From the NCBI RefSeq assembly GCF_029960785.1, contig NZ_JASBQE010000001.1:248001-312000 (forward strand): a stretch of 64,000 nucleotides of DNA, read 5' to 3'. Under the pieces are notes generated by a model. It made no database searches, was not told the origin of the DNA, and saw nothing but the letters and a program-made list of their open reading frames with translations. Below, piece by piece: positions 55,047 to 60,158 of this stretch (positions are counted from its first letter, which is position 1; each line of letters starts with the position of its first letter). The translations under genes were made by a program, and so were the position numbers. This stretch comes from Polyangium sp. 15x6 (GTDB lineage Bacteria > Myxococcota_A > Polyangia > Polyangiales > Polyangiaceae).

Positions 55047-55922
55047 TCAGCCCTGCCCCTCGTCGGGATCCTTGATCGAGGGGATCGGTTTTCCGCTGTC
55101 GCGCCACGTGACCGCGGCCTTCCAGCCTTGCTCCTCGCTGAGCTTCTTGAACCACATGCCTTCCGGCGAATGGCGGGTGATGCCGTCGAACAGCGTGGCG
55201 ATCATCTGCGTATTGGCGAGGCCCATGTTCTCGTAGGCCTGGTTGACCAAGAGCTTCTGCATCATGAGCTGATTGCGCGGCACGCCGCTCATGCGCTCGG
55301 CGAGCGCCTCGACGCGCGCGTCGAGCCCCTCGGCCGGCACCGCGTCGAGCACGAGCCCCATGGCCTTCGCCTCGACGCCGCGCACGAGATCGCCGGTGAG
55401 GAGCATGCGTTTGGCGCCCTCGACGCCGAGCCGATACACCCACATCGCCGTCGTCGGACAGCCCCACACGCGGGCCGGCGGATATCCGATCAACGCATCC
55501 TCGGCCATCACCACGAGGTCGCAGCAAAGCGCGATGTCGCTGCCGCCGGCGACCGCGTGCCCGTGCACCTTGCAGATCGTGGGTTTGTAGCTCCGCCACA
55601 GGCTCATGAAGTCGTCCGTGAAGCGCTTCATGAGGCGATAATCGAGCATGGGATCCCAGGGCATGTCCTGGATGCCGATGGTGCGTCCCTCCCCCTCCGC
55701 GAAGAGGGTGAGGTCGTAGCCGGCGCAAAACGAAGCGCCCGCGCCGTCGAGGACGATGACGTGGACGCCGTCGTCGTCGTTCGCCCGCTCGACGGCCGCC
55801 CGGATCTCCCCGGGCATTTCGTCGGTGATGGCATTGCGACGATCGGGGCGGTTCAGCGTGATTCGCGCGATACGGCCCTCGGCGCGGTAGAGGAGCGTTT
55901 TGTAGGGCATGAGCGGAGCCAT
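55047..55922 (-). CDS. Enoyl-CoA hydratase/isomerase family protein (crotonase)
   Basis: A 291-residue protein. [37 protein letters not shown] and [20 protein letters not shown] are the crotonase signatures: the oxyanion-hole glycines (CAGYD; AGGSD) are present. The catalytic Glu positions of classic hydratases are not in the usual place (the second block reads [13 protein letters not shown]), so a hydrolase or isomerase activity is as likely as hydration. The start may be ATG 55922 or ATG 55910 (MPYKTLLY). Monocistronic. Confidence 0.85.
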
Positions 55923-56094
55923 AGCACGGGACGGGTGATCGCGATCAGCCGGGTGCGCTCACCCTCCTGATCGCGACCGCTCACCCCAAGCGAGAAATCC
56001 AAGGAACATCGAGGATTTGGGTCACGGTTCGTGGTGGCACGCGGTTCGCTCGTCCCCGGGCCGCGTGCGTTCCTACCCCCGCGCGCCTGGTGCC

Positions 56095-56958
56095 ATGCCG
56101 CGACCCATGCCCCCTTCCGTCAACTACCACCTCTGGAAGCCGTGCAACATGCGGTGTCGCCATTGTTTTGCCACCTTCGACGACGTCGCCGCCACGGTCC
56201 TGCCCCGCGGCCATTTGCCTCGCGCGGAGTCCCTCCGCGTGGTGGAGCTCCTCGCCGAACGATTCCGCAAAATCACGTTCGCCGGAGGCGAGCCGACGCT
56301 TTGCCCGTGGCTCCCGGAGCTCGTCCGGGTCGCGAAAGAGCGCGGGGCCGTGACCATGCTCGTCACGAACGGCTCCCGCCTCGCGGATGACTATCTCGCG
56401 TCTCTCCAGGGACGGCTCGATTGGCTCACCTTGAGTATCGACAGCGCCTCCGAGGAGAGGCACGTCGCCCTCGGGCGCGCCGTCAGGGGCAGCGCCATTC
56501 CCACCGTCAGGTACGTCGAGATGACCGAGCGGGCCCGCACGCTGGGAATGCGCATCAAGGTGAATACCGTGGTCACCTCGATGCACGCGGGCGAGGACAT
56601 GTCCGATTTGATCCTCGCCCTCCGCCCGGAGCGATGGAAGATCTTGCGCGTGCTGCCCATCGAGGGCCAGAACTCCGGGAGCGTCGAGCCGCTCCTGTGC
56701 ACGGCCGAGGCCTTTCGTGCGTTCGTGGCGCGGCACGCACGTGTCGAGGAGCGTGGCATCGTCCTCGTACCCGAGGACCACGAGGACATCCTCGGCAGCT
56801 ACGCCATGGTGGATCCTGCCGGCCGCTTCTTCGACGACATGGACAGCGTGCACCATTACGGCCGCCCGATCCTGGAGGTCGGCGTGGAGGCCGCCTGGGA
56901 CAGCGTTCGGTTCTCGCTCGCCCGTTTCCAGGGCCGCGGGGGACATTATGATTTTTGA
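56095..56958 (+). CDS. Prokaryotic viperin (pVip), antiviral radical-SAM enzyme
   Basis: A 287-residue protein from ATG 56095 (ATG 56107 is an alternative; both are 5' of the conserved core). The opening SVNYHLWKPCNMRCRHCFAT carries the iron-sulphur motif CX3CX2C at Cys17, 21 and 24. FAGGEPTL is the SAM-binding GGE strand, and LVTNGSRL, WLTLSIDSASEE and KVNTVV follow in radical-SAM order. The ending PILEVGVEAA, VRFSLARFQGRGGHYDF matches viperin, whose C-terminus binds CTP, GTP or UTP. Known pVips convert nucleoside triphosphates to 3'-deoxy-3',4'-didehydro forms that stop phage transcription. No nucleotide kinase is adjacent. It converges with the FHA regulator gene, four bases away. Confidence 0.88.
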   Translation: MPRPMPPSVNYHLWKPCNMRCRHCFATFDDVAATVLPRGHLPRAESLRVVELLAERFRKITFAGGEPTLCPWLPELVRVAKERGAVTMLVTNGSRLADDYLASLQGRLDWLTLSIDSASEERHVALGRAVRGSAIPTVRYVEMTERARTLGMRIKVNTVVTSMHAGEDMSDLILALRPERWKILRVLPIEGQNSGSVEPLLCTAEAFRAFVARHARVEERGIVLVPEDHEDILGSYAMVDPAGRFFDDMDSVHHYGRPILEVGVEAAWDSVRFSLARFQGRGGHYDF

Positions 56959-56962
56959 GCCG

Positions 56963-58231
56963 TCATCCCTCTTCGGCGATCTTGCGCAGGAGCCGCAAGA
57001 GCCTCGCCCTGTCCACCCCGAGCCTCCGCGCCGCTTCGCTCTTGTTGCCCTTGCACTCCGCGAGCACGCGATTGACGAAATCGCGCGAGAGCGGCCGGGC
57101 TCCGACGTCTTCGCGAGGCCCGCCGAGGACGTCGGCGACGCCGCGCAGGGTGATGCCGCCGCTCGGCTCGAGATAGGTCACGACGAGGTCGAGATCACGC
57201 ACGTTGGCGTGGAAGGGCGCGAGCATGAGCCGCTCCAGCGCTTCCACCTCCACGCGTCGTGGATCGAGCGTCGCCCCGCGCCGGCGAAAGAGATGTTCCA
57301 GGATGGAGAACAGGTCCTCGGGTCGCTCCCGGAGCGGCGGGATCTCGATGCGCGCCGGAAATCGCGCGTACAGGTCCCGCCGAAACGTCCCGGCTTCGAT
57401 CATGTCCTCGATGTCGCGGTTCGTCGCGGCGACGAGGTGGACGTCCACCTTGATGGGCTTGCTCTCGCCGACGGGCAAGACCTCCCGGTTCTCGAGGAGG
57501 CGAAGCATCTTGGGCTGCAATTCGGGCGCGAGCTCGCCGAGCTCGTCCAGAAAAACCGTGCCGCGCGCGTGGGCGCGCAGGATGCCCTCGCCGCCGTCCG
57601 CGCTGCCCGAGAATGCGCCTTTTTTCCAGCCGAAGAGGTGCGCCTCGAAGACCGTGGCAGGCATCGCGGCCACATTCACGGCGGCGAAGGGTTTTCCCGC
57701 GCGGCCGAGCGCGGCCGTGACCTGCTCGGCCAAGAGCTCTTTTCCCGTCCCCGTCTCCCCCAGGATGAGCACGTTGGGCACGGGCCGATGGGCGAGCCGC
57801 GCGAGGTCTCTGCGTACGCCTCGCAATCCGAACGGCCCGACGAGCGCTCCGAGCGGTGCTTCCGGGGCGAGCGGGCCGTCGAACCGCTCCCGGAAGACGA
57901 GGAGCGTGCGGCCGATCCGCACGACGGCGCCGTCCTCGAGCGGCACGGCTTCCCGCGGTCGAAGCGCGTGGCCGCCGATGAACGTCCCGTTGCGCGAGTC
58001 GAGATCCTCGATGTGGATGCGTCCTCCGGGCCGCGAGAACCGCAGGTGCTTGCTCGAGACCTCCCCGTCGATCACGCCGCGCTGGGCGAGGAAGGCGCGG
58101 CCCAGGGGCTCGTTCGGGCCCGGCAGCGGAAGGGCGGCGAGCGTGGGGAACGCGACGAGCAGGACGGGCTCGCCGCTCGGACCGTCGTCGCGCGCCGGTG
58201 GGCGATGCTCTTCCGTGGTGGTCTGGCTCAT
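56963..58231 (-). CDS. FHA-domain AAA+ transcriptional regulator (sigma-54 activator type)
   Basis: A 422-residue protein from ATG 58231, overlapping the kinase stop by ATGA. FHA domain at ~40-115 (GVIDGEVSSKHLRFSR; DLDSRNGTFIGG), which reads phosphothreonine. AAA+ domain at ~130-370: Walker A GETGTGKE (158-165), Walker B VFLDELGE (226-233) and the loop GAFSGS (205-210), which in sigma-54 activators is GAFTGA. A Fis-type helix-turn-helix ends the protein (KGNKSEAARRLGVDRARLLR). FHA plus activator plus an adjacent kinase is a known myxobacterial pairing: the kinase is expected to phosphorylate and switch on the regulator. Target genes unknown. Confidence 0.9.
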   Translation of the reverse strand: MSQTTTEEHRPPARDDGPSGEPVLLVAFPTLAALPLPGPNEPLGRAFLAQRGVIDGEVSSKHLRFSRPGGRIHIEDLDSRNGTFIGGHALRPREAVPLEDGAVVRIGRTLLVFRERFDGPLAPEAPLGALVGPFGLRGVRRDLARLAHRPVPNVLILGETGTGKELLAEQVTAALGRAGKPFAAVNVAAMPATVFEAHLFGWKKGAFSGSADGGEGILRAHARGTVFLDELGELAPELQPKMLRLLENREVLPVGESKPIKVDVHLVAATNRDIEDMIEAGTFRRDLYARFPARIEIPPLRERPEDLFSILEHLFRRRGATLDPRRVEVEALERLMLAPFHANVRDLDLVVTYLEPSGGITLRGVADVLGGPREDVGARPLSRDFVNRVLAECKGNKSEAARRLGVDRARLLRLLRKIAEEG

Positions 58232-60051
58232 GGCGATGGGTCGTCGAGGTAAAACGCGACGGGGATCTGCCTGTCGCCAATACGAAACTCCGTCCCGACG
58301 CACAATGCGGAGGTCAAGAGCCCGGTCGGATGAAAGACGTGGTTCCCATGGGCGACCGCCTCGCCCCGCGAATCCTTGATTGTGATCTCGAGGCCAGGCT
58401 TCTGGGAAAGCTGCCCGGCCGTCACGGAGAGACGACGCTCGCGGGCGAGCACCCCGTCGCGCGAAGCGTCTGCGCCTTGCACGGCGTCGAGACATGGCGC
58501 TTCGCTTCGGGGATCGTCGGCGCGGCGGAAGCAGACCGAGAGGCCTGTCTGTCCCCCTTTGACCCCGGCGAGCCGCAGCAGGAATTGCCGATCGCGGGGT
58601 AACATCTCCGCGCAGCGCCCGGGGACGTACGTCCGGCCCGAGCTGCATTGCGCGCATTGATCCGGCTTTTTTTCGCACCACGTTCCGCGCGTGTCCTGCC
58701 TCGAAGGGGTACACGCGGGCCCACCGCAGCAGGTGCCGGCGCGGTCTTGCTCGACGGCTTTCGGGGACGACGGTGACGACGTCGGCGAAAGCTGGTGCGC
58801 CGTCGGGCTGGGGGTCGGCGTCGGCAGCGACAGCAGCGGGACGTCGTCCGTGGTGAGCTTTCCCGGTGGCTTCAGGTAAATGGCCCCGGCGAGGAGTGTG
58901 ATCGCTCCCGCCAGCGCGTACATCGCTCCCCGCGTCGAGCGCCCTGCGGGTTGGTCCCGACGCACGGGCGCGACCGGTGCCCGCGCGGCGGGCATCGGGG
59001 CCGTCCTCGCGACCGGAGCCATGGGCTCCGTGGGCGGCGCTAGGGACGGCGCCGCGGCCGGCGTGTGGGGTTCGGTGCGCGAGGGGAGGGCGCTCGAAGA
59101 CGCGCGCCGGCTCGGCGGCGGCGCGCCCGTTTTCAGCACCGACGCGAGCGCGGCCCCGTGCTCTGGGCGATCCTCCGGTCGCAGCGAGAGGCACGCCGCG
59201 ATGGCGGTGCCCCACGGCCCGGACAAACCCGGGCTCGGCCAGGGCCTCCGCCCCGCGTCGATGTCCGCGTACCGTTGCGCCATGGCCTCGAACGAGGCCG
59301 AAGGGCCGAGGCCTGCGGGATGCGTGCCCCAGAGGAGCTCCCACGCGATCACGCCGAACGCGAACATGTCGCGCGCGCAGCTCTCCTCGGCCGCTGCGCG
59401 TCGGCCGCCTGGGCGGAACAGCTCGGGCGCGAGATAACGTACGGTCCCGATCACGCCGCCCACGGCCGTCAAGCGCTGCGGATTGCCGATGGGAACGGCG
59501 ATCCCGAAATCGATGACCTTCACGGACCCGGGCCGTTGCGGGTTTTGCCAGAACGCGTCCGTCACGAGCACGTTCGCCGGCTTCAGATCGCGGTGCGCGA
59601 GCCCGGCCGCGTGCACGTAGGCGAGCACGTCGACCACCTGCGCGAGCGCGGCGAACCGATGTCCCTTGGACATCCGCGGATCGTGCATCGCCGCGTCGAG
59701 CGTCGAGCCGTGGACGAGGTCGAGCACGACCCCCACGAGGCCCTTGTCGAGGTCCTCGAACAACGCGTGACACGCGCAGAGCCCCGGGTGAGCGAGCGCC
59801 GCCAGGATCTTCGCCTCGCGCCGCGCGCGCGCGAACGCCGCCTGCCCCGCCTCCGAGAGGTGAACGAGCTTCAATGCGCGCGTGGCCCCATCGTCCAGGG
59901 GATCGACCACCTGCCACACCGCCCCCTGTCCACCCTCCCCAAGGGGCCGGATCAGCGTGTAGCGATCGACACGGTCACCCGGACGCAAATCCACGTACTG
60001 CCGCGTACACCATTCAGCCGGCGGAGGGAAGGCGGAAGACGGGGCGAGCAC
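58228..60051 (-). CDS. Transmembrane Ser/Thr protein kinase with Cys-rich extracellular part
   Basis: A 607-residue protein. Kinase at ~30-300: GEGGQGAVW (38-46), Lys61 (ALKLV), HRDLKPAN (153-160), DFG (181-183), all catalytic residues present. Pro/Ala linker ~315-375, one membrane helix at ~382-398 (YALAGAITLLAGAIYLK), then a periplasmic part with a Pro/Ser/Thr stretch and a Cys-rich domain (CCGGPAC, CEKKPDQCAQC, RCAEM, CFRRADD, SALCVG). It probably senses an envelope signal and acts through the FHA regulator, whose start overlaps its stop. The GTG/ATG choice at 60051 is not certain; a start closer to the kinase domain is possible. Confidence 0.88.
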   Translation of the reverse strand: MLAPSSAFPPPAEWCTRQYVDLRPGDRVDRYTLIRPLGEGGQGAVWQVVDPLDDGATRALKLVHLSEAGQAAFARARREAKILAALAHPGLCACHALFEDLDKGLVGVVLDLVHGSTLDAAMHDPRMSKGHRFAALAQVVDVLAYVHAAGLAHRDLKPANVLVTDAFWQNPQRPGSVKVIDFGIAVPIGNPQRLTAVGGVIGTVRYLAPELFRPGGRRAAAEESCARDMFAFGVIAWELLWGTHPAGLGPSASFEAMAQRYADIDAGRRPWPSPGLSGPWGTAIAACLSLRPEDRPEHGAALASVLKTGAPPPSRRASSSALPSRTEPHTPAAAPSLAPPTEPMAPVARTAPMPAARAPVAPVRRDQPAGRSTRGAMYALAGAITLLAGAIYLKPPGKLTTDDVPLLSLPTPTPSPTAHQLSPTSSPSSPKAVEQDRAGTCCGGPACTPSRQDTRGTWCEKKPDQCAQCSSGRTYVPGRCAEMLPRDRQFLLRLAGVKGGQTGLSVCFRRADDPRSEAPCLDAVQGADASRDGVLARERRLSVTAGQLSQKPGLEITIKDSRGEAVAHGNHVFHPTGLLTSALCVGTEFRIGDRQIPVAFYLDDPSP

Positions 60052-60158
60052 CGCGTTTGTCCGATCTCTCTCCCCGGTCGGGCGGGAGAGCGCGACCGTT
60101 GGTGCTCACACCATCGGAAGTGGGCTGCCTGCGGGCGCTTTCGTCGTAGAATGGAGGC

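Follow-up and report, generated by a model that had tools for sequence, protein, structure and literature searches.

Prokaryotic viperins (pVips) produce ddhCTP, ddhUTP or ddhGTP, nucleotides of a kind that halts the synthesis of viral RNA, according to later papers reporting Bernheim et al. 2021 (PMC10732462, PMC9642334, PMC12926258). On the regulatory side, the closest described systems are the FHA-domain sigma-54 enhancer-binding proteins, which combine an FHA domain, an AAA+ domain and a Fis-type helix-turn-helix (HTH), have a Ser/Thr kinase partner and use tandem palindromes placed ahead of a -24/-12 promoter, an organization that is found again, both in the protein and in its putative sites, at the locus described here. 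FHA domains bind phosphothreonine. An ATP-driven activator is required at sigma-54 promoters, as stated in two further papers (PMC7057263, PMC4987338). In the open-access literature searched, where Bernheim et al. 2021 was represented by later papers, we found no description of a self-contained kinase/FHA/sigma-54 control of viperin, nor of FHA sigma-54 activators tied to genes of anti-phage type (viperin, CBASS cyclase, type I restriction-modification). In the window, i.e. the whole stretch of 64,000 nucleotides that was analysed, a viperin gene shares a 4-kb insertion with a Ser/Thr kinase gene, a sigma-54 activator gene and matching control sites. This common location suggests that the defence enzyme may be produced in response to a signal and not all the time.

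Specifically, the open reading frame at positions 56095..56958 (+ strand) encodes a prokaryotic viperin (radical-SAM nucleotide dehydratase family) of 287 aa, as judged from profiles, an AlphaFold2 model and conserved residues; its translation reads MPRPMPPSVNYHLWKPCNMRCRHCFATF...KITFAGGEPTLC...FQGRGGHYDF*. The frame extends upstream of the ATG at 56095, and a TTG at 56017 would give a product of 313 aa; the ATG is the start that the relatives also have, and the proposed promoter is upstream of it. The first-pass annotation of this DNA had read the gene as a pVip on the basis of Cys17/21/24, FAGGEPTL and RGGHYDF, all of which are indeed found in the frame at the positions it gave. The three cysteines (C17, C21, C24) form the CX3CX2C cluster motif, and the protein possesses both the C-terminal RGGxY tail and the viperin fold.

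The NCBIfam viperin model NF038283 matches residues 7-282 of the protein with 287 bits (cut-off 180, E 1.3e-85), while the vertebrate-type viperin model reaches 130 bits and the MoaA model 64 bits; three PADLOC pVip models score 313, 278 and 237 bits. A sequence search of the Protein Data Bank returned viperins as top matches, with E values down to 1.7e-34, and the non-viperin matches were tetraether lipid synthase and MoaA only, at E 1e-7 or worse. When the AlphaFold2 model, built with 29 aligned relatives and having a mean pLDDT of 95.6, was compared with solved structures by Foldseek, ranks 1-30 were occupied by viperins only (TM 0.73-0.91), the first being mouse viperin with CTP (6q2p; TM 0.91, 1.7 A). 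It could be argued that a different radical-SAM family, MoaA-like or of the SPASM peptide maturase type, has been mistaken for a viperin, given that the CX3CX2C core is common to all these families and that MoaA does obtain a score. However, the viperin model exceeds MoaA in score by a factor of 4-5, with a match over the full length, and the first non-viperin fold, SkfB, follows the viperins at TM 0.67 and 7.4 A. Such a confusion is ruled out by the profile and fold searches, and we regard its probability as negligible. The profile comparison that the first-pass annotation had proposed as a check on its own reading thus came out on the side of viperin, and the identification holds because no competing radical-SAM family matches better, either by profile or by fold.

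The active site appears intact. Residues N10, K59, R128, K155, N157, R180, K182 and Y236 align with identical residues of mouse viperin (N77, K120, R194, K220, N222, R245, K247 and Y302), which we take to be its nucleotide and triphosphate contacts, and all the cluster-ligand and nucleotide-contact positions examined are identical to those of the mouse protein. In addition, the 29-member viperin alignment contains 37 invariant columns. Every family member compared has the same nucleotide-contact residues, and therefore the substrate cannot be read from the sequence. All together, we consider it practically certain that the frame encodes a genuine prokaryotic viperin enzyme which, taken alone, is a fresh member of an already known family.

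The host, with a genome of 13.4 Mb, belongs to the genus Polyangium, in agreement with the myxobacterial origin proposed by the first-pass annotation. The closest viperins are those of Polyangium fumosum (87% identity) and Polyangium sp. y55x31 (80%), followed by those of Corallococcus, Myxococcus and Citreicoccus (62-66%), while the proteins of Bacteroidota, Chloroflexota and Actinomycetota are 40-53% identical. A viperin above the cut-off is present in 7 of the 59 genomes of the host's order and absent from two of the six Polyangium genomes. In a quick tree, the Polyangium viperins and a protein from another genus (L123) form one starred clade (97), which, together with the Myxococcaceae viperins, falls inside a mostly myxobacterial set of 22 members (98). 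One Polyangium genome with the cassette (G005) carries a divergent second viperin (L119:7254-8087; 41% identity, 252.8 bits to the viperin model).

Compared with the prokaryotic viperins described by NF038283, the window protein shares the cluster motif, the nucleotide-contact positions, the fold and a full-length match. The difference lies in its surroundings, since the locus has no adjacent or fused nucleotide kinase and presents, instead, kinase/FHA/sigma-54 genes and control sites. When kinase domains taken from fused relatives were used as queries, no nucleotide kinase was found in the window, and the open frame of 339 aa contains a radical-SAM domain only. Many Bacteroidota relatives have a cytidylate-kinase-like domain (PF13189), either as an N- or C-terminal fusion or as the product of an adjacent gene. 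The pVip-kinase fusions (PADLOC PDLC02905; Bacteroidota, e.g. L052 and L066) provide the top-scoring PADLOC model, at 313 bits, and their viperin domain is about 50% identical to the window protein; they differ from it by the PF13189 domain, and the myxobacterial viperins group apart from them in the quick tree. The Myxococcaceae viperins (L041-L048), which are the nearest relatives outside the Polyangium family, have in most cases an overlapping gene of the deoxynucleotide monophosphate kinase type (PF21448) downstream, a partner that is missing from the window, and upstream a gene whose product has a hydrophobic N-terminus and contains a sigma-70 region 4, unlike the regulator type of the window, PF21448 and sigma-70 region 4 each having been found in the one protein tested. 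In six of these loci (L041, L043, L044, L046, L047 and L048) a P-loop kinase gene overlaps the viperin stop. Elsewhere, a viperin is fused to (L074:4929-6419) or located beside (L116:5438-6948) a TauD/TfdA-type dioxygenase, and we know of no described viperin–dioxygenase pair.

Alignment with a Polyangium genome devoid of viperin (G002) delimited a 4.16-kb insertion at positions 55912..60072, which contains the palindromes, the promoter, the viperin, the activator and the kinase, and nothing else. G002 represents the empty site: its alignment with the window stops at 55911 and starts again at 60073, about 18 bp separating the two blocks. The insert starts 24 bp ahead of the first palindrome and extends about 20 bp past the kinase open frame; no obvious direct repeat was seen at the joints on inspection by eye. 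Like family membership and the intact active site, these cassette boundaries come directly from sequence and structure comparison. The flanking genes, of which one codes for a sigma factor of the ECF type and the other for a murein endopeptidase-like protein, also occur in each of the five other Polyangium genomes, at a distance of 7.2 kb in the window, 6.2 kb in the two genomes with viperin at this site (G003 and G005) and 2.9-3.5 kb in G001, G002 and G004. An enoyl-CoA hydratase-like gene (55047-55922) is found at the left edge of the insertion; it is present at the empty site (G001, G002 and G004) and absent in G003 and G005, which have the viperin insertion. PADLOC gave no matches on the six flanking proteins, and hence the site is not a classic defence island. 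The first-pass annotation had described the viperin as stand-alone, without the nucleotide kinase often associated with pVips. The second part of this description stands; the first needs correcting, because the viperin gene shares its insertion with genes for a Ser/Thr kinase and for an FHA/sigma-54 activator.

The activator gene (56963..58231, - strand) is convergent with the viperin gene, from which it is separated by 4 bp, and codes for a 422-aa sigma-54 activator with an N-terminal FHA domain and a C-terminal Fis-type HTH. Its Pfam scores are all above cut-off (Sigma54_activat 170.6 bits, FHA 45.7, HTH_8 24.9), and both the FHA core and the recognition helix are intact. Upstream of it lies the gene of a Ser/Thr protein kinase of about 600 aa (58228..60051, - strand; Pfam Pkinase 115.7 bits), in which the HRDLKP, DFG, APE and glycine-loop motifs are all present. 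The kinase gene overlaps the activator start by 4 bp, and the two genes therefore probably constitute one operon.

The same order of kinase, activator and viperin is observed in G003, in G005 and in L123, which comes from another genus, while in a third genus (L124) the kinase and activator are located on the opposite side of the viperin. In G004 the viperin is elsewhere in the genome; it adjoins a kinase 66% identical to that of the window, and an activator-subfamily gene, paired with a different kinase, lies 5 kb away. This relocated viperin (L122:3482-7641) is beside a tyrosine-recombinase-like gene and a gene with an AlbA/Schlafen-like start, at a site unlike that of the other Polyangium genomes. 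The linkage of the three genes is thus kept through rearrangement in three genera and through the relocation in G004, which supports the existence of a cassette.

Upstream of the viperin gene, a tandem palindrome, TGATCGCGATCA followed by TGATCGCGACCG at 32 bp start-to-start, maps to positions 55936..55979 and is proposed, from its recurrence and its conservation in relatives, to provide the activator (enhancer) sites. The exact 12-mer TGATCGCGATCA occurs five times in the 13.4-Mb genome (reversed control, 0), the other four copies being within coding frames; with these numbers, the idea of a genome-wide housekeeping site was discarded. The looser tandem GATCGCGA-N21-25-GATCGCGA is found twice in the same genome. 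A sigma-54 type -24/-12 element, TGGCACGCGGTTCGCT, follows at 56035..56050 (+ strand), 56 bp past the tandem palindrome and 44 bp ahead of the viperin ATG. It is conserved in relatives, represents the sole match in the window to TGGCAC-N5-TYGCW (0.13 expected) and agrees with the sigma-54 consensus at 11 of 12 positions, with the right spacing between the -24 GG and the -12 GC, as a predicted promoter. In L123, whose viperin is 69% identical, the promoter arrangement is the same, the second site being weaker and at a distance of 31 bp.

To what extent these sites accompany the activator was assessed on an activator subfamily defined by E <=1e-70, comprising 34 members in 31 of the 290 genomes of the class, all but one in the Polyangium family and usually one per genome. 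The subfamily has a conserved recognition helix, AARRLGV.R..L.R. The tandem palindrome was detected in 17 of 35 subfamily loci (0.51 Mb) and in none of ten Markov replicas. Two tandem matches in the non-FHA control loci (0.33 Mb), L171 and L173, proved to come from activator-subfamily loci listed under other identifiers, and the genuine non-FHA control loci contained no tandem palindromes. A sigma-54-type element is present 34-102 bp from the tandem, on one side, at 17 of 19 tandems, with about 0.045 expected for each, where the analyst chose both the sigma-54 score and the distance limits of 25-105 bp, the latter after the first cases had been seen. The corresponding binomial P of 2e-21 treats related promoters as independent. 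Four of the viperin promoters are close orthologues and hence not independent; merging the obvious orthologues leaves roughly 11 of 13 tandems with the element, which is still far from chance. A gene-blind scan for tandem palindromes in 98 genomes of the family also reached loci in G065, G091 and G102, where an activator of the same subfamily, with 47-51% identity, is present.

The conserved palindromes, the -24/-12 elements and their tie to the activator subfamily are therefore established at the level of sequence and structure comparison. The only viperin-linked locus with kinase and activator but no palindromes is L124, whose activator has a diverged helix, VEREVERRYGIKRGKLRR; this single case fits with the activator being the putative reader of the palindromes. 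Other occurrences are worth reporting in their own right. In G116, a perfect tandem palindrome and a sigma-54-type element are found directly upstream of a B12-binding radical-SAM gene (L202:5430-7030), with no activator-subfamily gene within 6 kb. A coiled-coil protein gene is the common neighbour of the activator at L203:5456-6538, L242:8463-9473, L246 and L248:8543-9565, and in L203 and L242 it comes after palindromes and a -24/-12 element, as another, putative target.

Genes related to anti-phage defence other than viperin adjoin members of the subfamily. At L194:6118-7065 (G023), a CBASS-type oligonucleotide cyclase (PADLOC 338.7 bits) takes the place of the viperin; it is convergent with an activator that is the closest outside relative of the window one (59%), and is preceded by two palindrome-like sites 22 bp apart and by a -24/-12 element, CGGCACGACGGGTGCT. 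In G001, a Polyangium without viperin, a Ser/Thr kinase, an FHA/sigma-54 activator, hsdR, hsdM and hsdS are co-directional (L200:731-10907), with the activator directly upstream of the type I restriction operon. At this locus palindromes and -24/-12 elements are also seen ahead of a second kinase gene and of a small gene. In a Myxococcales MAG, a CBASS-type cyclase, a sigma-factor-like gene, a Ser/Thr kinase and a viperin lie in series (L050:4805-8912). Many subfamily members adjoin coiled-coil or lipoprotein-like genes with no known defence role, so that the activator does not regulate defence exclusively and a subfamily devoted to defence is ruled out.

Different explanations of the locus can be weighed against these data. 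The viperin might be an ordinary, constitutive pVip, with the kinase and activator as chance neighbours and a fortuitous -24/-12 match. Genes of this kind are abundant in Polyangium, the host genome alone giving 130 matches with the kinase and no fewer than 47 with the activator, and their random adjacency would not be very rare. Against this stand an insertion that holds these parts only, a linkage that outlives rearrangement in three genera, and tandems and sigma-54 elements found at 17 of 35 subfamily loci and at none of the non-FHA control loci; we assign a small probability to mere coincidence. A still smaller one is given to the proposal that kinase and activator form a defence or sensing module of their own, which acts on other genes and carries the viperin as an independent passenger. 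This proposal draws on the matches of the kinase to the PD-T4-6 and mads_6 kinase models of PADLOC, a generic kinase similarity. It is opposed by the palindromes and promoter, which are within the insertion and directly upstream of the viperin, and by the finding of the tandem only twice in the 13.4-Mb genome, both of which make the viperin look like the main target.

The viperin-fold enzyme could also have a housekeeping or secondary-metabolic role, in which the ddh-nucleotide is a metabolite and not a weapon against phages. Myxobacteria are rich in secondary metabolism, TauD-type dioxygenases are fused to or beside viperin relatives (L074, L116), and none of the six flanking proteins tested was recognised by PADLOC. 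However, the presence of viperin is patchy in the genus, the insertion site is clean and the related viperin of L050 adjoins a CBASS-type cyclase and a kinase, so we hold a metabolic role to be very improbable.

In conclusion, the best reading of the data, which we consider reasonably probable, is a phospho-signalling, sigma-54-dependent, inducible viperin cassette. Within it, control of the viperin by sigma-54 and the activator is likely on sequence grounds, while infection as the inducing signal is conceivable, if rather doubtful. Against this reading count L124, where viperin, kinase and activator occur together in the absence of palindromes, the 5-kb distance and the different kinase partner of the activator in G004, and the large number of subfamily members that adjoin genes with no known role in defence. 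According to this model, the neighbouring Ser/Thr kinase and the FHA-domain sigma-54 activator would sense or relay a signal, in a manner dependent on phosphorylation by the kinase; the activator would then bind the two palindromes upstream of the viperin and open the sigma-54 promoter, and the viperin would be produced on demand. The enzyme, in turn, would dehydrate a ribonucleoside triphosphate (CTP, UTP or GTP) to its 3'-deoxy-3',4'-didehydro form, a predicted chain terminator against phage RNA polymerases, and phage infection may be the signal at the start of this chain.

Little is understood of how bacteria time the production of anti-phage enzymes that are costly or toxic, and the chain terminators made by viperin might harm the host cell too. 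Here, the viperin comes with what appears to be a complete and self-contained on-switch. If confirmed, this would be an inducible bacterial viperin for which kinase, activator and promoter are all named, and the palindrome of the activator could be used to trace more inducible defence genes in myxobacteria. We also suggest, tentatively and as an unlikely extension, that the Ser/Thr-kinase/FHA/sigma-54 switch may be an exchangeable front end for anti-phage genes of the Polyangium family (viperin, CBASS cyclase, type I restriction). If this were true, these bacteria would possess an innate response set off by infection, with viperin induced at the level of transcription, broadly as interferon induces viperin in vertebrates.
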